This document shows positions 29,943-64,000 of a stretch of DNA of 64,000 nt, in pieces. This DNA is from Stentor roeselii (lineage: Eukaryota > Ciliophora > Heterotrichea > Heterotrichida > Stentoridae), in assembly GCA_006503475.1 (NCBI GenBank), contig RSEH01000026.1, positions 149,674-213,673 of the forward strand, given 5' to 3'. How positions within the stretch are numbered: the first letter of the stretch is position 1; each line of letters begins with the position of its first letter. The notes beneath the pieces are model-generated. The model ran no database searches. It worked only from the letters and a program-made list of their open reading frames with translations, and had not been told where the DNA came from. Position numbers and translations under genes: made by a program.

Positions 29943-30221
29943 TGGGATAAATGGAAGGATATTTATTTGGGTTTAGACATATTTACTAGCTTTTCTGCTG
30001 GCTTTACAATTAAATTCTAAAGTTTAACTTTTTCATCTCTGTGCTTCTTAACCCTTTCGCTCTTTAAGTATATCTAACCTCTAAAGACATAATCAAACCT
30101 TTACCTAAAAGCCACCTTCTCAAGAATAAAGTCATCAAACATACAACTTCCTCAAATCATTAAAAAAAAACCTTAACTATTAGTTGATATTTATCTTTAT
30201 ACTTAAATTATTTGCCTTATA

Positions 30222-36200: not shown

Positions 36201-37406
36201 ATTATCGCATTGACCATCACATTTAACTTAGACTGGCCGAAGATGGTAGTTGACATGTTTAAAGTTCAAAATCAAGGAACTGGAGGACCTGAGCGACTTT
36301 TTTCACTTGATTGTTTCCTTGCAGATCAAATGGAGCCTTACTACGCGAAACTTATCATGCTCAATACGATTCCTGTCGCTTGTTTTGTGATGTCTGTTCT
36401 TTTCTGGGCAATTAAAGCACTTTGCAAGCCATGTGAAAATGTGAAGTCTAAAATAATCGGATCGATTATTGTTCAGTTATTTTTTTTCCAGCCTTCAATC
36501 ATGAAGATGAATTTCTCGATGTTCAGTTGTTATAAGATTTCTGATGGAAATTATTATATGACTGGAGATATGTCGATTCAGTGCTGGAAAGGCGATCATT
36601 TGTTTTATGGACTTGTTATTGGTTTGCCTGGAATCGTGATTTGGTGCATTTTGATTCCGATTGTTTTGGCTTTGATTTTACTGAAAAGTAAACCGAAACT
36701 TGGAATGATACAAAAGAAGTTGAAATATGGATTTTTGTATAAAGGGTATGAAAATGATCATTTTTATTGGGAATTTTTTATTCTTTTTAGGAAAGTTGGA
36801 ATTATTTCATGTTCTGTTTTTCTTAGGAATATTTCTGTGCATATTCAAGCTTTAAGTGTTTTTTTTATTATTTTGCTTACTTTGATTGTTCAAATAAAGG
36901 TGAAACCTTATACTTATAATCATTTGAATAATATGGATAGTTGGTCTATGGTTGTTTCTGCTGTTACAATATATTCTGGGCTTTATTTTATGACGAAGGA
37001 ATTGAATAGTAATTATCAACTCATGTTTTTCTGCTTTATGGTTTTATCGAATTTCATTTTTGCTGTATATTGGATTTATTATACATTTGGATTTTATATT
37101 GCGAAATGTTTGCTTAAGATCAATTGCTGCAAAAAGATTTTAACGTCTGGGGATAAGAAATGGCTTCAAAGGATTGTACCTGATTATGATACTACTGTGG
37201 AAAATAAAGAAACTTTAGATGTTTCATCAGGGAATAAAAAATCTAGTTGTAGTAATGTCTCTTCACCCTCTGTAATCAATATTTAGGTTTTAGACAACTT
37301 CACTGCTGATCAAACTATGGATATGAATCCTTCTCCTGAAATTATTACGAAACCGAAATCAAGCAAATTGAAATTACAATGGGTTAGGAAAATAGATGAT
37401 AATTAA
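30222..37406 (+). CDS. Giant surface protein: 14 LNR repeats, beta-helix, Cys-rich hinge, multipass C-terminus (three 15-nt introns)
   Basis: Spliced exons are 30222-32165, 32181-34699, 34715-37271 and 37287-37406, giving 2,379 residues. A signal peptide (MIVFLMVVNTVHSQ) precedes 14 Notch/LNR-type repeats (about 15-475; pattern C...C......C...C....C.YDGGDC). A long Ser/Asn-rich beta-helix follows (about 500-1790), with Pmp-like GGAI...N.A elements near its end. A GCC2/GCC3-type Cys-rich segment (CPKGKYN, CPTGAICYGG) lies at about 1825-1930, and six to eight TM segments from about 1936 to 2290. The last exon gives a 39-residue charged tail. Large beta-helix/multipass proteins are a ciliate speciality, possibly adhesion or sensing; the LNR array at the tip is unusual. 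Function unknown. Confidence 0.87.
32166..32180 (+). other. 15-nt intron
   Basis: The sequence is GTAATTTTAAATTAG, phase 0, with A at position 10. Retention ends translation at the TAG. Confidence 0.9.
34700..34714 (+). other. 15-nt intron
   Basis: The sequence is GTAAGAAACATTCAG. It splits a TC/A serine codon, has A at position 10, and gives TCG TAA if retained. Confidence 0.9.
37272..37286 (+). other. 15-nt intron
   Basis: The sequence is GTAATCAATATTTAG, phase 0, with A at position 10. Splicing extends the protein by 39 codons to TAA at 37404-37406. Confidence 0.82.
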
Positions 37407-40368: not shown

Positions 40369-43300
40369 CTAATAAAGTTTTGGCGCACAAGCTCCTTTTC
40401 CTTTCACAAGAACATAGCCGTCTATGCATTTAGAGCACGAAGTCAAAGTACATTCTAAACATGATTCAGGACAGCAAATATTGCCCCTTAAAACAAATCC
40501 AACATTGCAGTCTGAACAAACAGAAGAATCAGTACATTTTTTACATTTTGAGTGGCAAGCGATACAACTTCCATTTGAATTTTTGTAATAACCATCCATG
40601 CAATTATCACAGACAACTAACGAAGTTTGACAATCTTTGCATTTATTTGGACAAGGGTTGGTTGAAGCGTCACAGGCTCCAGCCACACAATTATAACAGG
40701 TTTTAGGGCAAGGTTTGCAATTAGTTCCATCATATGTGTATCCATCAGCACACTCTAAGCATTTCAAAGTATCACATTTAACACACCCTGCAGTACAACA
40801 AAGGTTATCGATAAGTCCAAAAGGATTCAAACAAGACGTGCAAACTCCATCTGAACTGCAAGTCGCACATCTTGAAGGACATGCAAAACAAGTGCCACCA
40901 GCAAGATAATACCCATAAACACAAATCAAGCACGAGCTATCCGAAACACAAGAATAACACCCAACAGAGCAAGACGAGCAACACCCAGTTGAATCCAAGT
41001 AAAAAGAAGTCTTGCAAGTATTGCACCATCTGTCAAAGTCGAATGCTAAACAATTTGAATCTACGCAGACAGGCTTACAACAGCCAACTGAAGATAATAC
41101 ATATCCTGAGGAACACTCAGTACAACTGCCGAATTGACTCAGGGTCTTGCAGGCAAATGATCTTAAACACTTTGGAGCACAGCAGCCATTGATAAGGTCG
41201 TAATTCGTCTTGCATTGAAGGCACCAGCTGTCTAGTCCTTTTTTAGAACATCCGATCGGGTATTCGCATTTTGGTGAACAGCAGTTGATGGAATTCAGAG
41301 AATAACCGTCGGAACATTCGAGACACCAGCCATCTGTGTCTAGAATATTGCAGCCTCCATTTGGACAGAGTGGTACACAACACCAATCAACTAATCCATA
41401 CCCAGCCAAACATTTAGTACACAAGCCATTGAAAGCAACAGTAGCGCATTTCCCTTTAGGACATTCTTTAGCACAGCATGAGTTACTAGTAAGTAAATAC
41501 GGTGAAAAGCACTTAGTACACCAATGATCCTTATTAAAAACATCACAAAATTCATCATGACACAAAGGACTGCAACACCCAGTAGAGTAAAGAAAATAGC
41601 CAGTTTTACAAGTGATACAAAGTCCATAAGAATCATATTTCAAGCAAGTGCTTTCTTGACAATCAGGTGCACAACATCCGAAGTTATTCAAATGACTTCC
41701 ACTCAAGCACTTAACGCACCACCCTTGAGAGTCTTTAACTTCACATCCTCCCTTTGGACAGGTCGGCACACAGCATCCATTCAAAAGAGAAAAAAAAGAA
41801 TTACATCTTGTGCAGATGCCAGCAGAGGAAATAACAGCACAATTCAGGTTTAATGAACAATCATGAATACAACAACCATCTTGCCTTAAGATGAAGTTTG
41901 GCTTGCATAAGGAACATTCACCGTTAGGGGCTTTTTTCTGGCAGTAATCTCCAAGACATTCAAGATAACAGCAGCCGTAAAGGTTTACGGAATATCCTGC
42001 CTCACAAGTATTGCAATAACCGTCGTTGTACTTTATCAAACAATGATCGGGATCTGGGCATTTCTTGCAGACTCCTGTTGAATCAAGGTAGTTACCGTTT
42101 TGGCAGTATAAACATTGGTTTTTATCTGCACATGTGTCACAGTTTTCAACGCAAGGGATGCAGGTTTTTTGGGCAGTTAGAAAATAACCCGGTGAGCAGG
42201 AGTAGCAAGTATTTTCATTTATGCAATAATTACAGTTTTCAGTGCAAGGAAGACAACTTTCATCATAAGCTAAATAGTAACCAGATTTACAATAAGAGCA
42301 TGAACCTTCACGCTGGCAATAATCACAGTTGCATGGACAACTTAAGCAAACTCCATCTGAAGTAAGATAATATCTGGAATCACAAAAAGTGCACTTCTTT
42401 GGACTGTTGCAAATTGAGCAGTGAGGGGAACATTCGATACAATATCCATTTGGGCCTACATAATATCCATTGTTACAATATATGCAATTCCCAATATCAC
42501 CACAATTATTACAGTTATCTGGACATTTTAAGCAGTAGCCTTCGAATGTCAAGTAATAAAGCCAAGTACAATAGCGACAAGATCCGAATGCATCACATTG
42601 ATCACACCCAGAAGAGCATCGACGACAATGTCCATCCGCACCTAAATAATAATTATAATTGCATTCAATGCAATTATCTAGACTTTCACAAAGATTGCAA
42701 CCTTCTGAACATTTCATGCAGCCTCCTTCCTCTGTTATAAAGTAATTCCAGTAGCAATTTGAACACTTACCGTCTGAATTACAACTTTGACAATTTTCTG
42801 AGCATAAAATGCATCTTCCATCTGATGTTAGAGAATAAGGCCAATTACAATAGATGCAAGAATCAAAACTATCGCAATAGTAACAGTTAAGAGGACAATG
42901 ATTGCACAGTCCATCTGAAGTAATGAAGAATTGATAGGCGCATTGATAACAAAATCCATTTTCACACTGCTCACAGTTGACTGGACACCTTTCGCATGAG
43001 CCTTCTGAAGACAAATAGTATCTCCAAAGGCATTGGTAGCAAACACCAGGATCTTCACATATTTCGCAAAAGATAGGGCAATGTCTGCAATTCCCGTCCT
43101 GTGAAAGATAGAAGAGATATTCACATTGAAAGCAATTTCCTTCGGAATCAGATGATTCGCAACCATTTGAATTAGGAAGACAGGCTCTATCAGCGGTCAT
43201 ATAATATTTCCAGGTGCACTGGAAACAGTTTTCTGAAGAGTCGCAATAATCACAGTTTTCTGGGCATTTACTGCAAGTACCATCAGCATCTATGTAATAT

Positions 43301-44973
43301 TTTTGAAAGCATGATATACATCTACCTTCATTATTGCAAACGTTACAATGTCGTGGACAATTAAAGCAACGTCCATCAGACAGGTAGTACTGCCATATAC
43401 ACTGAATGCATTGATCGAAATTGCAGTAGTAACAGTTAGATGGACACGCTGAGCATGTACCATCTGATGATACAGAGTAAAGCTGATAACAATTATTGCA
43501 TCTCCCTTGATTATCACAATTGTTACAATTTGAAGGGCATTTCGAGCAGGTGCCTCTTTCAGTAAGGTAATAATTATAATAACATTGATTGCAATATCCT
43601 GAACTATTGCAACTATCGCATTTTAATGGACATCTAAAACAATGCCCGCTTAAATCCAATGAAAAGCCCCAGCTGCATTGATAGCAAATCCCATTATTAC
43701 AACCATCACAATTTAATGGACATTTGAGGCAATTTCCATCTTCACTAAGATAGTGCCTCCAATAACAGTTAATACATCTTCCAGTATAAGTCTCGCAGTA
43801 GCTGCATTGACTTGGGCATCTTGAGCATTGTCCATCAGAATTTAAATAGAAGTTATAGTAACAGTAATAACACTTACCATCTATATTAGAGCATTGATAG
43901 CAGTTACTAGGGCATTTTAAACATGTATTATCTTGTGCCAGATAATATTGCGATATGCATTGGTTGCATTGTTGACTATCACAAGCCTGACAATTGTTCG
44001 GGCATTTTGAGCAATATCCATCTGAGTTTAAAGTATAGAGCCAAAAACATCTCAAGCATTTTCCCTCTCTATTGCATTCTTCACAATTTTTTGGGCAGTG
44101 ATCACAATTATTACTGTAGTCCAAATAATATCTATATGGACATGAAGTGCACACTCCTTCTCCATTGCATTGATTACAGTTATTAGGGCAGGACTTACAT
44201 TGGCCATCTGATGAAACATAATACCTCCAATAGCATTCGGCACATTGATTTTCAGAATTACATCTTTGGCAATTAGCTGGGCAATTATCACATAATCCAC
44301 TTGAAGTAACAAAGAATTTCCATGAGCAGCGAGTGCACTTGCCTTCTCCATCGCATTCGTCACAATTTACAGGGCAATGTATGCATTCCCCATCCGAATT
44401 TTTATAAAATCTCCAATAGCAACTCAAGCAGTTAAAATTACCATCACATTGATAACAAGAACTAGGGCAATTCTGCAGCATTCGATGATTCTTCGAGTTG
44501 ATAAGAACAACCACTTGATACTTTGGCTCTGAAATGGACTGAATAATATTTCTAATTATTTCAAAGCCTCTCGTAAGAATACTCGGATCTATTCTGATGT
44601 TGTAAAAGTCTGAACTGCCTTCTAAACAGATGGTAATCGACTCGGATTCACCTTGTTCAAGACTCAAGAAGACATAATTATTTGATTGAGGAAGGTGGCT
44701 TTAAGAGCCAGTCTCGTAACAAGTTGAAGTTAAAGTTAAATGCTCAGTGAAGGTCTTTGGGGCCTTCAAGATGCTTGACAGAATCTCTTTGTCGATTCTT
44801 TCCAAGTCTCCTGAACAATAGACACTAATTTTGATTTCATTCGACCTGATCATCAAAGTCTCTTCTAAGAAAAGTTTAGACTCAACCTGACTTGAGGAAG
44901 TCTGAAGAGCTAGAAACAGCAAAACCATGAGAAAAGGAAGCTTTTTCTCTACTACGGCCTCGCAAAAAAACAT
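40369..44973 (-). CDS. Giant secreted furin/VSP-like Cys-rich repeat protein with one in-frame TAA
   Basis: The frame starts at ATG 44973 with a signal peptide (LPFLMVLLFLALQTSSS). It runs 90 codons to TAA at 44703-44701 and then continues in the same frame for about 1,440 codons to TAG at 40369. Beyond the stop there is no ATG for some 70 codons and no signal peptide, so both parts must belong together. After an N-terminal domain of about 165 residues come some 26 repeats of about 42 residues (CPxxCxxC.....CxxCxxxxYLxxDGxC), then about 11 repeats with a CC pair (GCCxPxCxxxxC), then about five of the first type. No C-terminal TM is seen. No 15- or 16-nt GT-AG intron removes the TAA. A matrix or surface protein is inferred. 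Confidence 0.8.
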
Positions 44974-49766: not shown

Positions 49767-52700
49767 ATGAATTCTGAGAAATTCAAACCTGGAGAAATCC
49801 AAAAAAGCAAGATCGCGCCAGGAGGTCAATTCTCAAAAATCGACTCTTCTCAAAAGCCAAAGAAAAAGCTTCAAAAGCGAAAAATCGACGACTACCTTCT
49901 CGACTGCATCAACAGAAAACTTCTAGAAATCCGAACCTGTCCCTACATCGACATAAAGCACGTCGGAAGAGTGAACTCGATAGCATTCTCCAAATGTGGT
50001 GCCTTTGTTGCCAGCGGGTCAGAAGACAGGTTCGTGAAAGTCTGGAATCTTTACGACAACAAAGAATTATTCTGTGACAGTCACGACGATGAAGTCTTTT
50101 CTGTGAGTTTTTCCCCTGAAGCCAAATACATCGCTTCAGGGTCAAAAGACCGAAAGGTGAAGGTTTGGAAGATTTCTAAAGACAAGGAAGTCTTTTCAGG
50201 AGAACATGAAGGAATCGTCTGGACTGTTGCTTTTTCTCCGAATGGAAAACTTGTCGCTTCTGGAGGAGATGATCATGTAATAAAGATTTGGGATATGAAA
50301 GGAAATTTAAAAAGAAACATTTTGAATCATAAAGAACCTGTCTTTGAAGTCCTTTTTTCAGGTGATGGAAAATTTTTAGCCTCGAGGTCTAAAGATAAAA
50401 CTGTTGCAATCTGGAGTTTTAAGTCAAAATCAAAACTTTTTCAAATCGTTCATTCAAAACCAGTGACTTCTATTTGTTTTTCTCTTGACAACCAATTTCT
50501 AGCTTCAGGGTCAGAAGACTGTTTAGTGAAAGTTTTCAGCATGTTAACAAAAGACGAGTTGTTTTGTGCGAAACATGCAGATCAAGTGAAATCTGTTTCT
50601 TTTTCACCCAATTCAAACTTTTTAGCTTCTGGGTCTTTTGACAAAAATGTGAAAGTCTGGAACATAAAAAAAAAACAAGAAGAATTTTCAGGGTTTCATG
50701 ATGATAAAGTCTATTCAGTTAATTTCGCTCCAGATGGGAATCTTCTCGCTTCAGGGTCTTATGATAAAACAGTAAAAGTGTGGAACATCAAAGAAAATCG
50801 CATCGAGTTCAGTGAAAATCATTCAGGAACTGTTTACGCGGTGTGCTTCTCACCTGATGGGTCGTTTCTCGCTTCAGGGTCCTGGGATAAAACAGTGAAA
50901 GTTTGGAATATCAAAGAGCGACAAGAGGAGTTCATCGGAAATCATTCAGGGACTGTTTGGTCCGTTTCTTTTTCATTTGACGGAAAACTGGTCGCAACTG
51001 GGACTGAAGACTGTCGAGTGACTGTTTGGAACACGAAAGGAAAACGACAAGAAATGTTTTTTTCTCATTCAAAAATCGTCAGGTCCGTATCTTTCGCGAA
51101 CAAAAGCAATGCCTTGGCTTCAGCCTCTGAAGACGGAACAGTAAAAATCTGGGATCTTTCAACGAAAACAGAAGAATTCACAGTGAATCATCTTTTAGGT
51201 GTTTTTTCATTAGTCTTTTCAGCAGATGACAGTCACTTTGCATCAGGGTCTTTAGATAAAACAGCAAAAATCTGGAATCGAAAAGGAGTGCAAATCGCTT
51301 CAGTCCAACATGGAGGACTTGTGAGAAGTCTTCACTTTTCACCTGATGGGCAAAACTTGATTTCAGGGTCAACTGACAACAGTATTAAAATCTTTGATAT
51401 TGTAAAAAAAACTGAGTCATTCACAGTCACTTCCACAAGGACTATTCGTTCAGTTTGCTTTTCACCTGACGGGAACTTCTTCGGTGCAGGTTCTGAAGAC
51501 TGTACTGCGAAAGTCTGGAAAACATCAGATCATAAAGAATTCGTTATTTTAAAACACTCTAAAGCAGTGCGTTCAGTTTCCTTCTCACCAGACAACAAGT
51601 TCTTCGCGTCAGGCTCAGATGATAAAAGAGTGAAAATCTGGAATCTTAAAGAAAATCGTTTAGAATTCAAAGCAGATCACTTGGGACCTGTTTGGATTCT
51701 CAGTTTTTCAGCTGATTGTGCTTTTTTAGCTACAGGATCTGAAAATAAACTGGTGAAGATCTGGAACTTGGCTGATAAAAGAGAAGAACTGACTGGACAT
51801 CACTCAGGAACTGTTACATCTATTTGTTTCTCTCCAGATTCTACAAGTCTTGCCTCTGGCTCTGAAGACAACACTTTAAAAATATGGAAAATTAAAGGAA
51901 AACCTGGAGAAATCAACTCAAACGGCTCTGGAAAGATCTTATCAGTCGCTTTTTCTCCAAATAACGCCTTTCTCGCTTATGGTTCTGAAGATAATAAAGT
52001 CAGGGTTTGGAATATTTCCGAAAATAGAGAAGAGTTCGTTCGAAATCATTTAGGAAGTGTAAAATCTCTCGAGTTCTCATTTGATAGCAAGTTGTTGGCT
52101 TCAGGGTCCTTTGATAACACAGTTAAAGTATGGGATATCAGAGACAAAAGAGAAATTTTTCATGGAAAACATACAGCGAATGTAAATTCAGTCTCTTTTA
52201 GTATCGAATCGAAAGACTTGATTGCCTCTGCCAGTGATGACTGGACTGCAAAGCTCTGGAAAATCAGTGATATGTCTGTTGTTGCTAATGTTTGTCATTC
52301 AGGAAAAGTCTATTCTGTGTCCTTTGCAAATGATAGCAAATTCTTGGCTTCTGGCTCTGAAGATAACACTTTAAAGGTCTGGAATGTTGAGAAAAATAAA
52401 GAAGAGTTCAACGGGGTTCATGCTGGGACTGTCTGGATTGTTTCTTTTTCACCGAATTCGAAATTTGTAGCTTCAGGGTCTGAGGATAACACGATTAAAC
52501 TATGGAGTCTTGATTTGAAAATCAATGTTTTTACTGGAAGACATTTGAATACTGTTACAACTTGCTTTTTCTCCAGTGATTCAATGTTTTTGGCATCAGG
52601 AAGTGAAGATAATACGGTAAGGGTCTGGAATCTTGAAGCGAAACGTGAAGAATTCAGTGGAAAACATTTGGATACTGTAAGAGCCGTTTGCTTTTCAAGT

Positions 52701-55700
52701 GATAATAATTTTTTAGCTTCTGGTGGAGATGATAAAACTGTTCAGGTCTGGAACTTGAGAGAAAAACGGGTCGAGTTTAATGAAAAGCTTGAAGGAGTTG
52801 TTTATTCAGTTTGTTTTTCTTCTGATTTTAACTATTTAGCTGCAGGGTCAGAAGAAAAAAAGGTTAAAATCTGGAATGTTAAAGATAGAGCTGAATTCGT
52901 GATTGAGGATTCGTCGGATATCAGATCGTCTTTTATTATCAATGGGAAGATACCTGAAAGTGGAAGTGGGATGAATTGTGAAAAGAATATTAATCCAACG
53001 AAAATTGAACCTTATTTAAATTTGGGTTATTCAGGACAAGTTTCATCAATTTTTTACTCACCTGATGGTAATTATTTAGCTTCAGGGCTCAAAGATAATA
53101 AGGCTATTATTTGGGATATAAAACAAAACACCGAGGTTCTTCAGGTGGTGCATGAAAATGAGGTCACAGCAGTTTGTTTTTCACCTGATGGGAGACTCTT
53201 GTGTTCAGGATCAAAGGATAAAAAAGTGAGAGTTTGGAACATAAAAGAAAACAGAAAGGAATTTATTGGATTTCATAAAGATTCTGTAAACTCATTATCT
53301 TTTTCAAGTGACGGTAATTTCCTGGCATCAAGTTCAAATGACAAGACTGTGAAAATCTGGAATATTCAAGACAAACGAGAGGAGTTCCAAGGAGGGCATT
53401 CCGATATAGTATCAATAGTCGTTTTCTCACCAAACGGTAGCTTCTTAGCATCAGGTTCATTAGACAAAACAGTCTCCGTTTGGAACATAAAAGAAAAAAT
53501 CGAAGAATTCAGCGGTGATCACAAAGGAAGAATCAACGAAGTCTGTTTTTCCCCAGACGGCTCTTTGGTCGCTTCAGCCTCAGATGATAAAACAGTAAAA
53601 GTCTGGAACTTTTTAGAAGGCACTTTAAAATTTGATAAAGAACACAGCGGAAAAGTAAAATCAGTGGCATTTGCACCAAATAGTTGCTTTTTAGTCTCAG
53701 GTACTTCTGATGGAAAAGTGACGATTTGGAGGATTGAGGACGGTAGTCAAGTTTATATTCGAGATCATTTAGGAATTGTGAAATCTGTTTGTTTTTCACC
53801 TGATGGCTTTTTTTGTGCATCTGGGTCAAGCATCGGGACTGTTCTCATTTGGAACTTGAAAGAAGGAAAAGACCCTTTTATCGGAATTCATTCGGATGAA
53901 GTCCAAAGTCTTACTTTTTCACCTCATGGAAATTATGTCGCTTCTGGGTCTTTTGATAAAACTGTTAAAATTTGGAGTTTAAGAGGAATTAATCAAGAAA
54001 AAAACAGTGAGTCTAGCAATTTTACAAGATTTGATCAATGGCCAGGTTTAAAACCAAAAGAAATTGATTTCATTTGTTTTTCGGCTGATATGAATGTAGC
54101 TGCTTCTGGATGCACTGAAGCGAAAACAATAAAACTTAAGAATTTGAAACAAGCGAGTTATTTGAATCACTTGAGAGGAAATCCTCGATCTTTATCATTA
54201 TCGAGCAGAGGAGATCTTCTAGCTTATGAGCTTCATAATAAAGGACTTATTTTGTGGGATGTGATAAATAATCAAGAGTTTCGAACTTTCAAGTATTTTA
54301 AAGAAGTAACATCTACTTGTTTTTCTAATTTTGGAACTTATTTAGCGGCAGGTACAGAAAAATCAGTGATTTTGATAAATTTAAATGAAGAAAAATCAAA
54401 ATATAACTTTACAATTCACAGTGAAGCAGTTTTAGCACTTTGTTTTTCTAATGATGAATGTTTTTTAGCTTCTGGTTCATGGGATGGTGAAATACAAATC
54501 TTTGACGTTCAAGAAAAAAAATATCTCTACAGGTTAGATAAACGTGAAGGATGCATAACATCAATGGTTTTTTCACCTACAAAGGACTACTTGGTCTCTG
54601 GATCTTCAGATGGCTTTATCAAAATCTGGAATGTAAGGACTCCAGAAGAAATATACAGTTTAGTCCTTGATAAATTAGAATTCATCTCAGTTTCTATGTC
54701 AAGAGATGGAAAACTGGTTGCTATTGGAGGAACTGATAAATCTTTTATTATTTTAGATATTGAGGATAAAAGTAGAGTTTTTAGTGAAGGATTAAAAGAA
54801 GCGATCATGAGTGTTTCTTTTTCATCTGTTGAGGATTCAATCGTTGTTGCTTTAAGCTCTGGAATCGCGAAGATTTGGAAATATGAAGTTGAAAAAAAGG
54901 AGGAAGAGGATGAAGAAGATGCGATAAGACAATCGATTAAAAAAAATAAAGAAATTGAATTAACAAGCTTAACAAATAGAATATCAAAAGATGGAGAAAT
55001 AAGCCTTGGTAATAAAATTCCTAGCGAATACATTTATGAAAATTCTCCGATGAATAAATCAAAAGAAATGTTTATTTATAAGTTTACAAAAGGTCTTTCG
55101 TATAAAATCAATGAGAGTACCACAGGAAATGCATTGAATCAAAGAACAGAAATAATCGACTCTTTGAATGCTATTGATTTAGCAATAAAATACACCTACG
55201 GGTACCGAATTTCAACAAGTAACTTTGGCTTCGATTTGATGAAAAAAGATCAAAAATTAAACAAGTTCAAAATTATAAGTTTTATAGGTTCGCAACTTAA
55301 ACTGGAAATAGATTCCAAAACCTTTACATTCGCATTAGAACAAGAGTTAAAATTCAATCAGTTATATTTAGATTTGATGGAATATCAAAAGAAAGAAAAC
55401 TGCATCGTGAGCATCGATACTGAAGTGATTCCATCTAAAACAATGGTTTTAAGGCCAGCATCAGTAAGTGACCCATTTTTAAACAGTCCTCTTACTTACT
55501 ACTACGCCCTTGAAGCCATTCAAAAAGGAGTCTTCGACAAAATCACTTCAAAGCACTGCAACATCTTAATTTCTCAGTATAAATACACTGTTTTGCACTT
55601 CGCATCTTACACAGGTCAATCAAAATCTCTTGAAACTCTTCTCAACGAAGATCAAAATGATGTTGACATCCAGGCTGACATTTTCGGCAAGTCACCTCTT

Positions 55701-57218
55701 TATTATTCGTGGATGAAAAAAGAGTTAAGTTGTTTTGAAATAGTTCTTCAGTACCTGATAAGGATAGATGCAAGTGATCGACTTATCAGTAACTTGCATT
55801 CAACTAGAAATGACTTTTTACTAATCATAGAAAGCTCATCAGCGAATCTTGCAGTGTACTTGTCGAAAGTTCTAATGAAAGATGAAAGTGACATCAGGAT
55901 ATCGATTCCTGCTAAGCTTCCTAATCATTTAATAAAGGATACAATCAACCCGATGTTCAGTGATTTCGATGGAGTGCTTGAAAAAAATAAAGATTCGAAA
56001 TTCATCAGCGGAATTTTGAAATTTAGTGCTTTTGCCTTGCCAATCGAGCCTTATTCCAAGAAGAACATAAAACTGTTAAGGACTTTATACGAATGCACTA
56101 ATAGAAAAGTTTATGATGACATCCTTATTCAGTACTTGATTGATCATAACTGGAATTCAGTGTTTCGATGGTCATTTGGATATTCAATCCTCATTTGGGT
56201 TCATATTTTGTTTTTCTTTTTAACGTATATCAAACCAAATGATATGAACACGATGATTCCTTTATGGACTACCTACACTTTGATACTCATTTGGGAAGTT
56301 GTTCATTTAGTGCTGGATTTTAAGATATATTTGAGGAGTACTTGGAATATGATTGATATTTTACTCATCTTGTTGACACCTTTTTGGAGTTATCTGAGAT
56401 TTTACAGTCTTGACTCTTTGTACACTGACCTCGCTTTGGCTTGGCTTTTGATGATTAGAGGAGTCGCCCCTTTCAAAACATTCCACGGGACACGACATTA
56501 CATTCGTCTTATATTGCAATCACTGAACAACATCAAGTATTTCTTAATCATTTTCCTGTACTTAACCTTATTTTTCTCAGTTCTGATTTTCATAGTCCTC
56601 AGAAATGATGAAGACCATAACACGAATTTCTTTGAAATGGTGAAAATGTCTTGGTATTTGAGTGCTACTGGGAACACTGCAATAGAAAGCAACTATGAAA
56701 TCATTTCTTTGGTTATTTTCATGTCAACGATTTTGAATCTGATTTTGATGCTTAACATGCTGATTTCAAATCTTGGAGACAGTTATGATCAGTTCTGCTT
56801 CGATAAGAACATCATCGACTACCGTGAAAGGATTTCTCTTACTCTTGAAGTCCAAACTGCTCTGTTTTGGAGAACTCATATTGACAGGACTCACTTTGTT
56901 CATATCTTGACTAGAAAATATGAAAGCAAGTTGGAAGATGATGACGACTGGCAAGGGAGGATCATGTTTACTGAGCTGAAACAGGAGAGAAGGATTGAAA
57001 ATCTAGAAAGACTCATGAATGGACTTGATCTTAAGATCTCTGGAGTTGAAAAAAAAATTGATTTAAAGAATAAAGGAGATCCTGATGAGATTGATGCGAA
57101 AATCAACGGAATTTATGAAAAAATCTCTAGACTTGAAAATAAAATTGATAGTGGATTCAAGAGTATGCAATCCCATTCATCAGCTGCTTCTCTGCCAGTA
57201 AAAAAATCTAAAGTCTAG
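49767..57218 (+). CDS. WD40-array / TRPV-like channel fusion (2,483 aa)
   Basis: A single uninterrupted frame. Residues 1-60 are basic. Residues about 63-1710 hold roughly 39 WD40 repeats of 41-42 residues (H..xVxSVxFSPDGxxLASGSxDKTVKVWN), enough for five or more propellers, with one linker after repeat 24. An acidic stretch (EEEDEED) and an intermediate domain follow. An ankyrin-like pair lies near 1940 (TVLHFASYTGQSKSLETLL). Six TM segments span about 2128-2341, with a pore helix before TM6. TM6 ends ILMLNMLISNLGDSYDQF, the NxLIAxxGDTY-type signature of TRP channels. The tail has a coiled coil (about 2400-2460), suggesting multimerisation. A cation channel with a huge cytosolic scaffold is inferred. 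The ATG follows TATATAA. Confidence 0.9.
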   Translation: MNSEKFKPGEIQKSKIAPGGQFSKIDSSQKPKKKLQKRKIDDYLLDCINRKLLEIRTCPYIDIKHVGRVNSIAFSKCGAFVASGSEDRFVKVWNLYDNKELFCDSHDDEVFSVSFSPEAKYIASGSKDRKVKVWKISKDKEVFSGEHEGIVWTVAFSPNGKLVASGGDDHVIKIWDMKGNLKRNILNHKEPVFEVLFSGDGKFLASRSKDKTVAIWSFKSKSKLFQIVHSKPVTSICFSLDNQFLASGSEDCLVKVFSMLTKDELFCAKHADQVKSVSFSPNSNFLASGSFDKNVKVWNIKKKQEEFSGFHDDKVYSVNFAPDGNLLASGSYDKTVKVWNIKENRIEFSENHSGTVYAVCFSPDGSFLASGSWDKTVKVWNIKERQEEFIGNHSGTVWSVSFSFDGKLVATGTEDCRVTVWNTKGKRQEMFFSHSKIVRSVSFANKSNALASASEDGTVKIWDLSTKTEEFTVNHLLGVFSLVFSADDSHFASGSLDKTAKIWNRKGVQIASVQHGGLVRSLHFSPDGQNLISGSTDNSIKIFDIVKKTESFTVTSTRTIRSVCFSPDGNFFGAGSEDCTAKVWKTSDHKEFVILKHSKAVRSVSFSPDNKFFASGSDDKRVKIWNLKENRLEFKADHLGPVWILSFSADCAFLATGSENKLVKIWNLADKREELTGHHSGTVTSICFSPDSTSLASGSEDNTLKIWKIKGKPGEINSNGSGKILSVAFSPNNAFLAYGSEDNKVRVWNISENREEFVRNHLGSVKSLEFSFDSKLLASGSFDNTVKVWDIRDKREIFHGKHTANVNSVSFSIESKDLIASASDDWTAKLWKISDMSVVANVCHSGKVYSVSFANDSKFLASGSEDNTLKVWNVEKNKEEFNGVHAGTVWIVSFSPNSKFVASGSEDNTIKLWSLDLKINVFTGRHLNTVTTCFFSSDSMFLASGSEDNTVRVWNLEAKREEFSGKHLDTVRAVCFSSDNNFLASGGDDKTVQVWNLREKRVEFNEKLEGVVYSVCFSSDFNYLAAGSEEKKVKIWNVKDRAEFVIEDSSDIRSSFIINGKIPESGSGMNCEKNINPTKIEPYLNLGYSGQVSSIFYSPDGNYLASGLKDNKAIIWDIKQNTEVLQVVHENEVTAVCFSPDGRLLCSGSKDKKVRVWNIKENRKEFIGFHKDSVNSLSFSSDGNFLASSSNDKTVKIWNIQDKREEFQGGHSDIVSIVVFSPNGSFLASGSLDKTVSVWNIKEKIEEFSGDHKGRINEVCFSPDGSLVASASDDKTVKVWNFLEGTLKFDKEHSGKVKSVAFAPNSCFLVSGTSDGKVTIWRIEDGSQVYIRDHLGIVKSVCFSPDGFFCASGSSIGTVLIWNLKEGKDPFIGIHSDEVQSLTFSPHGNYVASGSFDKTVKIWSLRGINQEKNSESSNFTRFDQWPGLKPKEIDFICFSADMNVAASGCTEAKTIKLKNLKQASYLNHLRGNPRSLSLSSRGDLLAYELHNKGLILWDVINNQEFRTFKYFKEVTSTCFSNFGTYLAAGTEKSVILINLNEEKSKYNFTIHSEAVLALCFSNDECFLASGSWDGEIQIFDVQEKKYLYRLDKREGCITSMVFSPTKDYLVSGSSDGFIKIWNVRTPEEIYSLVLDKLEFISVSMSRDGKLVAIGGTDKSFIILDIEDKSRVFSEGLKEAIMSVSFSSVEDSIVVALSSGIAKIWKYEVEKKEEEDEEDAIRQSIKKNKEIELTSLTNRISKDGEISLGNKIPSEYIYENSPMNKSKEMFIYKFTKGLSYKINESTTGNALNQRTEIIDSLNAIDLAIKYTYGYRISTSNFGFDLMKKDQKLNKFKIISFIGSQLKLEIDSKTFTFALEQELKFNQLYLDLMEYQKKENCIVSIDTEVIPSKTMVLRPASVSDPFLNSPLTYYYALEAIQKGVFDKITSKHCNILISQYKYTVLHFASYTGQSKSLETLLNEDQNDVDIQADIFGKSPLYYSWMKKELSCFEIVLQYLIRIDASDRLISNLHSTRNDFLLIIESSSANLAVYLSKVLMKDESDIRISIPAKLPNHLIKDTINPMFSDFDGVLEKNKDSKFISGILKFSAFALPIEPYSKKNIKLLRTLYECTNRKVYDDILIQYLIDHNWNSVFRWSFGYSILIWVHILFFFLTYIKPNDMNTMIPLWTTYTLILIWEVVHLVLDFKIYLRSTWNMIDILLILLTPFWSYLRFYSLDSLYTDLALAWLLMIRGVAPFKTFHGTRHYIRLILQSLNNIKYFLIIFLYLTLFFSVLIFIVLRNDEDHNTNFFEMVKMSWYLSATGNTAIESNYEIISLVIFMSTILNLILMLNMLISNLGDSYDQFCFDKNIIDYRERISLTLEVQTALFWRTHIDRTHFVHILTRKYESKLEDDDDWQGRIMFTELKQERRIENLERLMNGLDLKISGVEKKIDLKNKGDPDEIDAKINGIYEKISRLENKIDSGFKSMQSHSSAASLPVKKSKV
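49960..54890 (+). repeat. Array of about 39 WD40-encoding repeats, unit about 123-126 bp
   Basis: Each unit encodes 41-42 residues and many share near-identical cores such as GCTTCAGGGTCT...GATAAAAC. The order of conserved strands is maintained throughout. Repeats 33-35 and 38-39 are the most diverged. The array suggests growth by unequal exchange of one to several units. Confidence 0.88.
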
Positions 57219-58118: not shown

Positions 58119-61100
58119 TTATGATTCTTTACTCTTAAAACTAGGCCTTCTTCCACATTGAAGAATCTCAAAATAATCCGAAAATCTGCTGACAATTCCA
58201 TAATTCCTGAATTCCGAAATTTTGATGATAAGTTTTTCAGGACACGCTATAAACAAACATTTTTCACATCCTAAAACTCTTAAACGATTTTCTTTCTTGA
58301 CATACCCAGTTGATTCGATGAAACCTGAATTAAAAAACTCATCTTGACTTAAAGACCTGGGAATCGGACAGTAGCCAATAAAGTTCAAGTAGTCTTCAAG
58401 TTCAGAGCTATCCACAAACATAGATCCTGCAAAAACAGCGAGCTGCTGAAGTAGATCTTTCGGGAATTCAAATTCAAACCTTGAGAAAAATAAACTCTGG
58501 TCCGTTCTAGTTCTCGGCATCAGCATGCTTAGAGTAGTGGAATCTTGCGAAAAATAGTTAAAATGATTATGTGCTTCAAATGCACTAATAATCACAACAT
58601 GGCCATCTGATATATTTGGATTGAAGCAAATCCACCTGGGAGGTTTTAAGTAACTATCTCCGTAGTACTGTTTTGTCACAGTATTCAAAAAGTCAGAAGT
58701 TAAAAAAATTCTTTTACTCCAAGCTTCAGGCTGTGAGTCGTTTTTTACTGATGATTGAGAAAAACCTTGCCCGATATTAATGAAATCTTGAGAATCCTCC
58801 GGAATAAAACCTGTTTTTATAAATAAATATAGTCCTTTAGCATTTTTTGGACAAAGAGGAATCGCTGATTTAGGTTTCTCGATTTGCACTTCTTCTTCTA
58901 TCTCAATTTCAAGTTCAATTTCTCGTTCTTCATCAGAACGGTGAGAAAGCATTTTGAGATCGCCTGCGATTTTCCTTATAAAATTAATGATTTTTTTAGA
59001 TTTCTCATCGAAAAGTGCTGATGGTACTGAATTCTTTTTTAAGTATGAAGCGATCCCTTGAGAGATTCCATCCAAAATATGTTTGGCTGAAAATTCATCT
59101 CGATCAGGATCATACAACGAAGCAACATCAGTATTTTCCTTTTCTTCATATAAATTCGAGTATTTTTTAATATCATTACATTTCTCATAATCTTCACAAA
59201 TCTGCATCCGTCGATAAAAGCTAAGTCCTTGAACAGCCCAATACATTAGTTGGCTTAGTATCATGTTTTTTGTATTTTTTATCGCCCATTCAAGGATTTC
59301 TTTTGTTCCTATATTTGAATTATTTTGGCGAATCTCATTGTCAACTTCGTGACTAGCGAAAAAACAAACCTGATGTCCGTTTCCAAGCATCCTCATCCTC
59401 ATACAGGCCTGCATTAATCGATCCTTAGTCAGATCTTTACCTAGTGTGACGGCTCCAATTGTTCCCTTAGGAATTTTCAAATCAGTTCCTCTCGTATGTG
59501 TGTCGTCCAAATAAATAACACAAGATTGCAAATGAGTCTTATAAGGCGACATTTCAAAAGCAACAATATGACCTTGTCGGTCGATAACTTTGATTTCGTT
59601 GTTTTCATCAAAATACACTCCAGCTTCGATATCAGATCTTAATTTAAGCCACTCCTTGACCAGTTCTTCGTTTGTCAGGTCAAGCATCAGAGCTCCTGCA
59701 TCAAGAAGCAGTCTGAGATTAGAATTTTTCTCTGAAATATCTTTTAGTAGTTGATTGCTACTGACTCCAAGTTTAATAGATATGTAAGAATTGTTCTCTG
59801 GATGAAGTAAACTTTCGATAAGACTTCCGTTTGTTCCTGATAGGTTAGTAACACCTGAAAAAGAAGTGTTTAAAGGAAGGAGAAATTTTGAATCATTTGT
59901 CCCACTGAAGCCTGTTGTTATAGTTTTTTCTGGACATAGATCCCAGGATGAGTTGCAAAGTTTTGAACTGAATTCTTTCATTTCTTTTGGATATACACAA
60001 GTATTCAACCAGAAATTAATAACGATTGTGTGCTTGCGAAGTAAGGGATAGAGGATATTGTATTTTTGGTGGATTTCTGATAAATTTACTCCTTTCAACA
60101 TTCTTATCGAGTCATCTATTTCTTTATTCGGAGGAATACTTTTTATCCAGCTCTCATATTCACTTTCAGGGAATGGGTTGTTCTTCAGTTTTTCAAAGAC
60201 CTGATCAAGTTGGTTATTATTGAGTCCACTGTAAAAGTAACTTAATTGCGTCAATAAAATAGAAATATCAGGGTGTGCGAATTGTGCTCTTTCTGCTGGT
60301 ACATCCTTAGCTCTAAAAGGTACAGCTTGTTGAAGATAATTTGTATTAACTCCATAATTAACCCTCCATCTTTTGCTCAAAACACTAAAAAGAATTTCAT
60401 AAGAAAAAATACCCCTCAAAATAATGATAATTTCATGCCTTTCACCTAAACTCGGAAGAATATCTTTAAGTTCTTTTCTAATTTCTGGCGGAACTACTTG
60501 GCTCAAGATGTAATCTAAGACGACTTTTTTTACTTTATCCTTCAAAGGTAAAAATTTAATGAAATTCGCATTTCCATTCAGTATATCTAAACAAATATTC
60601 TTACACAAATCGCCATAAGCATCTTTATTCAACAATCTAAAATGAGGGTATGCGATCGGATCTTCTTGCTGTTGAAAAAAAACACTTTTATCACCAAAAG
60701 TTTTTTCTAGTTCTGAAAAGTGGTTTTTAGCTAAATCTAAAACTGCTTGACAAACTTGCCATCTGAGTTGTCCACAAGAGATCTGCGACTGTTTCCCAAC
60801 AGTGTAGACAAGTTGATACTTCGGACTTAGAATTTCATCAGATTCATCAATCACATCTCTACAGTATTTTCCCAGCCAATTTTGAATTTCAACCATTTTG
60901 AGTCCAAGATTTTCATTATTTCTGCAAAGTTCTAAGCCTTTCAAATTAAAAGAAAGTCTGAATTCAGGCAAAGTTATAAAAATTCCTTTTTTTCTTCTAC
61001 ATTCTTTTAATAGTGTTTTAATAGTTAAAATTTTGTCATAATCAAATTCAGTATCACGCCTGCAAGGAACAACATAGACTCGTTTATTTATCACTCCTCC

Positions 61101-64000
61101 AACTTTATGCATTAAAGAACTTCTATTCATGTTGAATAGTGACTTCAAAACAGTAAACCTCATCAAATTATTTCCATCTGCTAAAACAATTGCAATCATA
61201 GGCAAAATTAAAGAAGTTTTACCTTCCCCCATATTAAGCTGAGTGACAAGGTTTTTATTTTTTGAGAACATCATTGTCTTAGCTACATCCACCTGAACTG
61301 GTCTAATCATCAAGTCAAGTTCAATTTGAAGTACCAGCCATCCAGGGTATTCAGCTGGTGACCAGTTCGCATATGGAATATTTTCAAGTTCTCTTGATAA
61401 TGCAAGACTTTGTGAATCATTATTAAAGTAACCCAAGCAACGCTCAAGCCTTTGCTCGAGGGTCCAGAGTACACAAATCGCTCCACATATAATCAAATGA
61501 TCATTTTTTAAGATAAAACTGGGATTGGAAAAATGTAAAAGTTGCCTTTGGATTTCAGTAGGAGTGAGTTCAGGGAAATATTGAGAGATTTGGAGGATTC
61601 GGTTTTGCTTGTTGTTTTTAAAAAGTGAAGATTCAAGGCTATTTTGGAACTTTTTCAATAGTTTACTGTATTTATGATGATGGGATATTAATTTTCCCTC
61701 TAAATCTTGCACTTTATTAGTGGAAATTGTTGTGTTTTTAGATTCTTGATGCTCTTTCCAACTTTTGATTAGGTCCTTAATTAATATGTCATCAAGATTT
61801 GAATTGCAAGGATAATCTAGAGGGAATTTTTGTTCATTTTCATTTTTTTCTTTGTTAAGTATTTCGAAAAGATTTTCAGGTTTGAAAAGCCTTTTATTAA
61901 AAATCAATTCAGCTTTACTTACAATATTTTCCGGAATAATTTCACTGCAATCTAAAACAGGTTGAAATTGATTGAAACTGATAGGGTCATTAACTCTTAG
62001 TAACACTTTTTTTAAATCTATTATTTTCGGAGATAGAAAATTATTAAAGACATTCTCAACTTTTCTAAAAAATTTCCAAAATTCCACATTTTTAAACCAT
62101 TTGAAAATCTCTTCAGAAACAATATAATTAAGGTTTTGATTAAAAAATGGATCGTTTATATATTGAATTTTCTCACAAGGCCACTGCCTTTCAAAATATT
62201 TAAGAGCTTCAAGTATTTTTTGATTTTTTTCAATAAGATATTTGTTTCTAATTTCTTCTGTTATTAAATAAAAACCCAATCTTTGTGAGTACTGATTAAG
62301 AGAAATGATTTGCGAAGAAATGAAATCTTTTATAACATCGACTTTAAAAAGAACTTCAGAAACTTGATCATACTCATGGTATTCAGGGGCTTCAATTTCA
62401 TAAAATTTTGATTGGTTATCAAGTACAGTCACTAAAAATAATAAAAAGTCAATATCCACTCCTCTATATGCTGCTAACGCGAGACCGAATCGAAGTCCCA
62501 ATTTATCATTTTCAGAACAACATCTGCAGTATTCATATAGGTTTATCCAATTATCTAAAAAATTATCAGGTTTCCACATTGACTCAGGCACAGAACAACT
62601 TACTGAAATTTGTGAATTTTTACCAATTAATTTTTTAAGTTGAACTAACTTCCGTTCTATCGAATTTAAATTAGTACGTTGCAATTCCCGGTTCATGACT
62701 TTTCTAACATTAAGAATATTTTCTGAATCCCAATTTATATCGATTCCAAAACAAGGAAGATTTTCAGAAGAAGTTTTGTTAGGATATATCAAATATTCGT
62801 TTTCTTCAAATAATCTGAAATTCAGAGGTAAGAGTTTTCTGTACGCTTTTTCATGAAGAAGTCTTTTATTCTCGTTTAGTTCCTTTTTTTCTGTTTTCTC
62901 AAAAAGGAGAGAGTTTTCCTCAATCTGATGTGCAAGAAATAAAAAACAGTCACTTGATGCATAACTGGAATTAAGATCTGGCCATTTAACATTTTCCACA
63001 GTTTTTTTACTCGGAGGAACGAAAATTCTTTCAGGACTTAGCCTCGAGATTTTTTTCAAGATTTCATATGATTCATCAGGTAGTTTTGTGCATGAAAATA
63101 CGTGCGGGCTCTGAAGAATTTCTAAAGCTCTTGCAGTTCCTGATATTTTCAGAAATGGGTCAGGAAGGATATTAGATGTGAATGCGTGCAGATAAGCCAG
63201 GTAGAGCCAGGCAGTAGTTGATTCTCCTGCCCGTAGAATTCCGATTCGGTCATCAATTTCATAGATAAAGAAAGAAGGATTTTGCAATTCTTTTGTGTCG
63301 ATATCGACTAATTCGCCTTTAGAGTTGTTGGAACTTTTCAAATTGCCATGTGGAACAATAAATTTCTTTTTAGCAAGACGTGAGTTAATACTATTCTCTG
63401 AGCTGTTTCTATTCCTTGAGTCATTTTTCATTTCGAGAACTAGTCCTTTCTCAAGGCCAATTAAAGTGCCAAGACTTTGATCAAGTGAAAGTTTGAGTCC
63501 TCTAAATTGCTTCGAAATAATTTCATTTTCTTCATTTAAAATTTCGAAACTAAGATTGTACCTTTTAAAATCGATGACAAATTTTGGTGATGAATTTTTA
63601 TCTATAAACATTTGAATATTTTCTCGAGAATCCATTCGAAATCCTACTTTTGTGTAAACTTCATCAAAGGATTTACTTTGAATATTGATAAGCAAACATT
63701 CCGTTGCATCATCAGTAACTGTATTGTCATTTAAATTCAAAGTAAAGAATCTATCACGACTGAATGAATTCTGTTTTAGATTTTTTACCCTGAAGTATAT
63801 TTTGTTGGCTTTAGTGTCTAGCCAGTGGCTATAGTCTTCAACTAATGCTTTAGGAAGTAAATAATCGAACTTTTCATGAGGAATCAGCTCAAGCTCTGTT
63901 GTTTTCCCATCTTCTTCACATAACTCTTTCACTAAAAGATTAGAATTTTCTCTCGGAGAATACGCAAATTTATAACTAAATTTCAATTTTTCGGTTATAT
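58119..64000 (-). CDS. DUF3638/DUF3645-type giant P-loop protein, 5' end outside the window
   Basis: The frame is open from the right edge to TAA at 58119, giving about 1,960 residues. No ATG lies near the edge, so the N-terminus is missing; family members often reach about 3,000 aa. A P-loop (QLNMGEGKTSLILPM) lies near visible residue 918, and a DESDE motif resembling Walker B near 1045. A helicase-like block follows at about 1490 (YLDDTHTRGTDL) with DRLMQACMRMRMLGNGHQV shortly after, similar to an arginine-finger motif. These match the DUF3638/DUF3645 proteins of fungi, plants and protists, often labelled ubiquitin hydrolases without strong evidence. An ATP-driven remodelling role is inferred. 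Confidence 0.82.
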   Translation of the reverse strand, partial: ITEKLKFSYKFAYSPRENSNLLVKELCEEDGKTTELELIPHEKFDYLLPKALVEDYSHWLDTKANKIYFRVKNLKQNSFSRDRFFTLNLNDNTVTDDATECLLINIQSKSFDEVYTKVGFRMDSRENIQMFIDKNSSPKFVIDFKRYNLSFEILNEENEIISKQFRGLKLSLDQSLGTLIGLEKGLVLEMKNDSRNRNSSENSINSRLAKKKFIVPHGNLKSSNNSKGELVDIDTKELQNPSFFIYEIDDRIGILRAGESTTAWLYLAYLHAFTSNILPDPFLKISGTARALEILQSPHVFSCTKLPDESYEILKKISRLSPERIFVPPSKKTVENVKWPDLNSSYASSDCFLFLAHQIEENSLLFEKTEKKELNENKRLLHEKAYRKLLPLNFRLFEENEYLIYPNKTSSENLPCFGIDINWDSENILNVRKVMNRELQRTNLNSIERKLVQLKKLIGKNSQISVSCSVPESMWKPDNFLDNWINLYEYCRCCSENDKLGLRFGLALAAYRGVDIDFLLFLVTVLDNQSKFYEIEAPEYHEYDQVSEVLFKVDVIKDFISSQIISLNQYSQRLGFYLITEEIRNKYLIEKNQKILEALKYFERQWPCEKIQYINDPFFNQNLNYIVSEEIFKWFKNVEFWKFFRKVENVFNNFLSPKIIDLKKVLLRVNDPISFNQFQPVLDCSEIIPENIVSKAELIFNKRLFKPENLFEILNKEKNENEQKFPLDYPCNSNLDDILIKDLIKSWKEHQESKNTTISTNKVQDLEGKLISHHHKYSKLLKKFQNSLESSLFKNNKQNRILQISQYFPELTPTEIQRQLLHFSNPSFILKNDHLIICGAICVLWTLEQRLERCLGYFNNDSQSLALSRELENIPYANWSPAEYPGWLVLQIELDLMIRPVQVDVAKTMMFSKNKNLVTQLNMGEGKTSLILPMIAIVLADGNNLMRFTVLKSLFNMNRSSLMHKVGGVINKRVYVVPCRRDTEFDYDKILTIKTLLKECRRKKGIFITLPEFRLSFNLKGLELCRNNENLGLKMVEIQNWLGKYCRDVIDESDEILSPKYQLVYTVGKQSQISCGQLRWQVCQAVLDLAKNHFSELEKTFGDKSVFFQQQEDPIAYPHFRLLNKDAYGDLCKNICLDILNGNANFIKFLPLKDKVKKVVLDYILSQVVPPEIRKELKDILPSLGERHEIIIILRGIFSYEILFSVLSKRWRVNYGVNTNYLQQAVPFRAKDVPAERAQFAHPDISILLTQLSYFYSGLNNNQLDQVFEKLKNNPFPESEYESWIKSIPPNKEIDDSIRMLKGVNLSEIHQKYNILYPLLRKHTIVINFWLNTCVYPKEMKEFSSKLCNSSWDLCPEKTITTGFSGTNDSKFLLPLNTSFSGVTNLSGTNGSLIESLLHPENNSYISIKLGVSSNQLLKDISEKNSNLRLLLDAGALMLDLTNEELVKEWLKLRSDIEAGVYFDENNEIKVIDRQGHIVAFEMSPYKTHLQSCVIYLDDTHTRGTDLKIPKGTIGAVTLGKDLTKDRLMQACMRMRMLGNGHQVCFFASHEVDNEIRQNNSNIGTKEILEWAIKNTKNMILSQLMYWAVQGLSFYRRMQICEDYEKCNDIKKYSNLYEEKENTDVASLYDPDRDEFSAKHILDGISQGIASYLKKNSVPSALFDEKSKKIINFIRKIAGDLKMLSHRSDEEREIELEIEIEEEVQIEKPKSAIPLCPKNAKGLYLFIKTGFIPEDSQDFINIGQGFSQSSVKNDSQPEAWSKRIFLTSDFLNTVTKQYYGDSYLKPPRWICFNPNISDGHVVIISAFEAHNHFNYFSQDSTTLSMLMPRTRTDQSLFFSRFEFEFPKDLLQQLAVFAGSMFVDSSELEDYLNFIGYCPIPRSLSQDEFFNSGFIESTGYVKKENRLRVLGCEKCLFIACPEKLIIKISEFRNYGIVSRFSDYFEILQCGRRPSFKSKES

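Follow-up and report, generated by a model that had tools for sequence, protein, structure and literature searches.

We found that a single open reading frame (ORF) of Stentor roeselii, at positions 49767-57218 of the forward strand of the window (the whole 64,000-nt stretch of DNA analyzed here), encodes 39 WD40 blades and, downstream of them, an Ion_trans domain of six helices that is preceded by a weak ankyrin-like stretch and followed by a coiled coil, an architecture that is well supported. In our assessment, the chances are roughly evenly balanced that the product is a cation channel similar to those of the TRP superfamily, with the WD40 array serving as a cytosolic docking or tether scaffold. 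The features of the ORF are listed below (positions in the window, strand, description).

49767..57218, +, complete ORF of 2483 aa, ending in TAG; without an internal stop in the standard code; codon bias of the reading frame above zero in 25/25 bins
49767..49943, +, polar N terminus, residues 1-59; no window resembling a blade (highest blade score -42.7 bits)
49944..52895, +, WD40 block A (residues 60-1043), 24 repeats spaced by 41 residues (once by 40, once by 42)
52896..53012, +, spacer of 39 residues (1044-1082); unreported by the repeat hidden Markov model (HMM); possibly a decayed blade
53013..53996, +, WD40 block B, 8 repeats, residues 1083-1410; repeat pattern and HMM
53997..54038, +, insert of 14 residues (1411-1424); break in register
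54039..54899, +, WD40 block C, 7 divergent repeats, residues 1425-1711; HMM i-Evalues 9e-15 to 0.34
54900..55514, +, linker, residues 1712-1916; without a Pfam family above cut-off
55515..55775, +, ankyrin-like stretch, residues 1917-2003 (87 residues); Ank_2 at 25.4-25.9 bits, below the cut-off of 27.3; designed ankyrin proteins top the PDB list
56169..56792, +, Ion_trans domain, S1-S6, residues 2135-2342; PF00520 at 29.9-32.3 bits; controls 0/10
56661..56678, +, putative selectivity filter region SATGNT, residues 2299-2304; placed by a weak TRPV1 alignment
56745..56786, +, S6 end LMLNMLISNLGDSY, residues 2327-2340; TRPV1 alignment
56811..56867, +, post-S6 segment at the place of the TRP helix, residues 2349-2367; inspection against the TRPV1 row; tryptophan replaced
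56976..57185, +, coiled coil at the C terminus (residues 2404-2473) with two heptad runs; heptad scoring

One reading frame spans both halves

The ORF, whose coordinates had been given exactly in the earlier note, starts with an ATG directly preceded by a stop codon and continues for 2483 aa in the standard code without an internal stop. At the GC content of the window (0.345), an open run as long as this one has a chance probability of p ~10^-82. Codon bias was scored in 300-nt bins with ten other ORFs of the window as the reference, the last bin extending beyond the stop and containing three stops. Frame 0 gave 0.06-0.33 bits per codon and was positive in 25/25 bins, while the other two forward frames were negative in all bins and the reverse frames reached up to 0.17 in single bins, in some frames only. 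Both the reading frame and the codon bias continue across the junction between the WD40 and channel halves, where 432 codons remain open from the last blade to S1 (chance ~10^-14). The proposal that the two halves form one polypeptide is supported by a single standard-code frame with codon bias unbroken over both.

A soluble WD40 gene and a neighboring channel gene could also have been joined artificially, by an assembly error or a missed gene boundary, and the failure to find a relative of the channel half among prokaryotic and viral contigs would be in line with this. There, a single-sequence query, which detects close relatives only, gave 12 pattern matches in prokaryotic contigs and 2 in viral contigs, none of them related, and a degenerate DNA pattern of the S6 end hit one locus plus four loci, of which 0/5 were a channel with the motif in the matching frame. 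However, given the 432 open codons at the junction and the positive codon bias in each bin over it, misassembly of the fusion gene is unlikely, and we assign an artifact of either kind a very low probability.

The WD40 array comprises 39 blades in three blocks

The estimate of about 39 WD40 repeats made from inspection was matched exactly by two approaches, a curated blade-end pattern and a repeat HMM. For the former, blade ends were marked by a regular expression with 47 matches, from which 8 overlapping or out-of-register ones were removed by eye, leaving 39. The HMM, built on 31 of the repeats, reported exactly 39 domains; only the 8 repeats left out of the training set constitute an independent test of it, and among these, 7/8 had an i-Evalue of ≤0.0083 and repeat 34 one of 0.34 (all i-Evalues refer to a one-sequence database). 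The Pfam WD40 model (PF00400) matched 34 stretches in the ORF. As is typical of this family, the array is built of tandem repeats about 40 residues long that share an H...S/T...D...W framework. Repeats 1-32 follow one another at an interval of 41 residues in 28 of 31 cases, the other three steps measuring 40, 42, and 80 residues, and in the ungapped comparison of all 39 repeats the framework H is kept in 28, the S/T in 31, the D in 31, the W in 33, and all four in 23.

The spacer between blocks A and B might be counted as a further blade. Its ungapped blade score was reached by 9.4% of 5,000 shuffles; with one gap allowed, in a post hoc test, only 1/2000 shuffles scored as well, yet the log-odds were negative (-19.8 bits). 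A decayed 40th blade is therefore suggestive at most.

The solved sequence nearest to block A is PDB 2ymu (E 2e-128), a WD-40 repeat protein that we take to be from Nostoc. Its 577-residue chain is listed as a WD-40 repeat protein only, and we know of no channel linked to it.

Compared in pairs, the 39 repeats are on average only 35% identical, which suggests an old array and not one produced by recent slippage. When identity was averaged by offset over the first 32 repeats, the means ranged from 0.37 to 0.43, and no clear period of 7 or 8 repeats emerged that would point to block duplication within these repeats; the ring boundaries therefore cannot be read from the identity pattern. β-Propellers of the WD40 type close into rings that commonly have 7 or 8 blades. 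The blocks of 24, 8, and 7 repeats would fit rings of these sizes, and by arithmetic 39 blades would make five or more propellers.

AlphaFold models computed without an alignment were unusable both for the channel half (mean pLDDT 35) and for WD40 block A (mean pLDDT 51). Foldseek returned 26 matches at E≤10 for the block A model and 0 at E≤0.001, the top one being the circular LRR protein CroV588 (TMq 0.11). No propeller was among these matches, which, for a model with a pLDDT of 51, we read as a probable artifact of single-sequence modeling and not as an argument against propellers.

Variable repeat columns are compatible with many contacts

To describe the surface of the array, we computed column entropies for the 41-residue repeat unit from repeats 1-32, repeat 19 being one residue out of register in this count. 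Columns 5, 9, 11, and 3 are the most variable (3.54, 3.34, 3.19, and 3.14 bits), column 27 has 2.77 bits, and framework columns 6, 10, 15, 28, and 34 have 0.34-0.99. Columns 9, 11, and 27 are presumably the contact positions of the top face, and their variability is weakly suggestive of, and compatible with, many different contacts on one face. Given that columns 3, 4, 5, 20, and 40 vary as much as column 27 or more, this surface argument is nonspecific.

The same columns would also suit a signaling hub, in which the channel is the same but its array gathers kinases or partners of the G-protein or ubiquitin type, or senses a ligand, with no force involved. WD40 domains generally act as sites of protein-protein interaction, according to an excerpt of PMC5068960. 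A length of 39 blades would exceed the need of a hub with few partners, and we regard the signaling hub as possible but somewhat unlikely.

The channel half contains an Ion_trans domain

In fragments free of WD40 repeats, the Pfam model Ion_trans (PF00520; cut-off 25) matched residues 2135-2342 with 29.9 bits (772-aa fragment) and 32.3 bits (300-aa fragment). In the scan of the full-length protein, WD40 and propeller models fill the best 25 of 62 families, and Ion_trans lies outside these. Ten controls, comprising the reversed sequence and nine versions shuffled in blocks of 20 residues so that the approximate hydropathy profile is preserved, gave no Ion_trans match at E≤1. The lack of an ion-transport domain at residues 2128-2341 had been named in advance as a result that would refute the fusion, and the claim passed this test, the detected domain being offset from the span by at most 7 residues.

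As in TRP channels, the Ion_trans domain has six helices with a pore loop between S5 and S6, and its S4 is without the regular arginines of voltage sensors: residues 2223-2239, assigned to S4 by inspection, contain one Arg and one Lys. This lack of an arginine ladder argues against primary voltage gating. The filter reads ATGN opposite the GMGD of TRPV1 in a weak alignment, and the loss of the filter aspartate relative to TRPV1 suggests that calcium selectivity would be weak. S6 terminates in LNMLISNLGDSY, and the TRP-type end of this helix described in the earlier note was recovered as LMLNMLISNLGDSY at residues 2327-2340. The coiled coil noted there was located as well, with the best 12 heptad windows of the whole ORF all starting at residues 2404-2446 and 1/1000 shuffles of the tail scoring as well. 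The cautious label "ankyrin-like" was apt for the stretch upstream of S1, since its Ank_2 scores (25.4-25.9 bits) are under the cut-off of 27.3.

The six-helix domain might also be degenerate and nonconducting, merely holding the WD40 array at the membrane. Its Ion_trans score is modest (29.9-32.3 bits versus 60 bits for the other channel of the window, described below), and the ATGN in place of GMGD could likewise be a sign of decay. Against such an anchor, S5, a pore-loop-like stretch, and the TRP-type S6 end are all retained, and behind the channel domain comes a coiled coil that could serve assembly. We consider it improbable that the domain is an anchor rather than a conducting channel.

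A tentative lean of the channel toward TRPV

The channel half had been called TRPV-like, and this held in part. Searched against PDB sequences, a 168-aa query covering S4-S6 returned TRPV1 alone (7/7 rows, E 0.03-0.06), the 17.4-bit score of the match carrying a bias correction of 8.7 bits. A 389-aa query returned Kv3.1 at the top (E 0.076) and TRP channels in 0/6 rows. With the 772-aa query, the best 60 of 151 rows were nearly all designed ankyrin proteins, matched via the ankyrin-like stretch, and no TRP channel was among these 60; the best E value of 8.6e-11 is a sum over three stretches of 0.12-0.19 each. TRPV1 thus appeared only with the shortest of the three query spans, and a scan with NCBIfam gave no channel family.

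TRP channels have a TRP box with a conserved tryptophan after S6, although some TRP families are without this box, and TRPV channels carry six N-terminal ankyrin repeats ahead of the pore module. Compared with the TRPV1 row, residues 2349-2367 lack the TRP-box tryptophan, and the 87-residue Ank_2 stretch, itself under the cut-off, amounts to about two weak repeats. We describe the protein as a divergent six-helix channel that appears to lean toward TRPV, a lean that is not statistically secure.

Its likeness to TRPV1 and the TRP superfamily (PDB 8u3j, 3j5q, and 7l2p, among others) lies in the six-helix domain, the missing S4 arginine ladder, the ankyrin-like stretch before S1, and an S6 ending in L-N-M-L-I plus G-(D/E). 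In contrast to TRPV1, the Stentor protein adds 39 WD40 blades at its N terminus and a coiled coil at its C terminus, is without the TRP-box tryptophan, has ATGN for GMGD, and contains about two weak ankyrin repeats versus six.

Neighboring genes and candidate tiny introns

The genes of the window are read in the standard code, and the same code is given for Stentor coeruleus in an excerpt of PMC9505925. According to that excerpt, 8173/8806 annotated introns of S. coeruleus (92.81%) are 15 nt long, and their branch adenosine is almost always at position 10. No excess of intron-like 15-mers over other lengths was seen in the 64-kb window, and only one 15-mer candidate joined two long open runs under the filter used. 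This is the 15-nt GT...AG stretch GTAATTTTAAATTAG at 32166, with A at position 10, which joins runs of 1959 and 2520 nt and fits the tiny-intron pattern of Stentor. Taken from the sequence alone, the genetic code and this stretch suggest Stentor or a close heterotrich as the source. The 15-nt stretch lies in a long gene for a cysteine-rich membrane protein (30207-37286, forward strand; by inspection), whose in-frame stop at 34701 is accounted for by no intron with the usual branch adenosine.

Within the ORF at 49767-57218, six 15- or 16-mers pass the length, GT-AG, branch-A, and AT filters of the tiny-intron scan. The four 16-mers were rejected because they would shift the open frame, and so was the 15-mer at 51402, which sits in a blade and whose removal would break the 41-residue step. 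The 15-mer at 55729, within the ankyrin-like stretch, would leave the frame intact if spliced out and may be a tiny intron.

A second channel gene, at 5225-7192 on the forward strand, encodes a six-helix, cyclic-nucleotide-binding protein (Ion_trans at 60 bits plus cNMP_binding), an ordinary member of the Ion_trans superfamily near the structures of SthK, SKOR, and HCN (E down to 4e-37). On the reverse strand, an ORF at 3-2504, open at the window edge, contains two tandem protein-kinase stretches, and a 1432-aa ORF at 40369-44667 is, on inspection, composed of numerous cysteine-rich repeats that seem to be of two types, one following the other. A large protein with DUF3638 and DUF3645 is encoded at 58119-63986, also on the reverse strand, open at the window edge and convergent with the WD40-channel gene.

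Proposed working and biological meaning

Under the reading that we favor, a TRP-like cation channel with a docking or tether scaffold, four subunits would surround one pore, with the coiled coil aiding assembly, giving 4 x 39 = 156 blades per channel. The N-terminal array would lie in the cytosol, which fits the distribution of strongly hydrophobic windows: no such window precedes residue 1214, and those at 1214-1232 and 1679-1697 both fall within blades. Folded as several propellers, the blades would offer their variable surface positions as a multisite docking surface, which could tie the pore to the ciliate cortex, whether to microtubules, contractile fibers, or associated proteins. Binding to the array, or tension on it, might then be relayed via the ankyrin-like linker to the pore.

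A known channel with a comparable layout is NOMPC/TRPN, with 29 ankyrin repeats. The likeness is that in both a very long array of cytosolic repeats precedes a TRP-type pore, which suggests the logic of a tether; unlike NOMPC, the Stentor protein has WD40 propellers and not an ankyrin spring, and microtubule binding or mechanical gating would be attributed to it by analogy only. Carried to its end, the analogy would have the propeller arrays act as NOMPC's spring does, four of them (156 blades) tethering the TRP-like pore to cortical microtubule ribbons or contractile fibers and making it a candidate for the mechanoreceptor current of a giant contractile ciliate, a specific version that we consider improbable.

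Both halves of the protein are familiar, but no description of their combination, with a WD40 array joined to a TRP-type channel, or of its scale was found among the open-access literature matches listed. WD40-channel combinations may occur among uncharacterized ciliate proteins in domain databases. For the micronucleus-enriched proteins of Oxytricha, the InterPro counts in Table 1 of PMC9958989 include 6 TRPV-family and 26 WD40/YVTN-like entries; these are possible relatives, the table counting domains and not their co-occurrence per protein. Uncharacterized relatives may well exist in ciliates.

Mechanoreceptor potentials have reportedly been recorded in Stentor. RNA interference is workable in this genus by feeding and by injected double-stranded RNA, according to an excerpt of PMC10762896 and the abstract of a further paper. 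If it is transcribed as one protein, the ORF would give a defined gene with which to ask what channel underlies mechanoreception in cells like Stentor, and it would represent a new kind of cytosolic module on a TRP-type pore.
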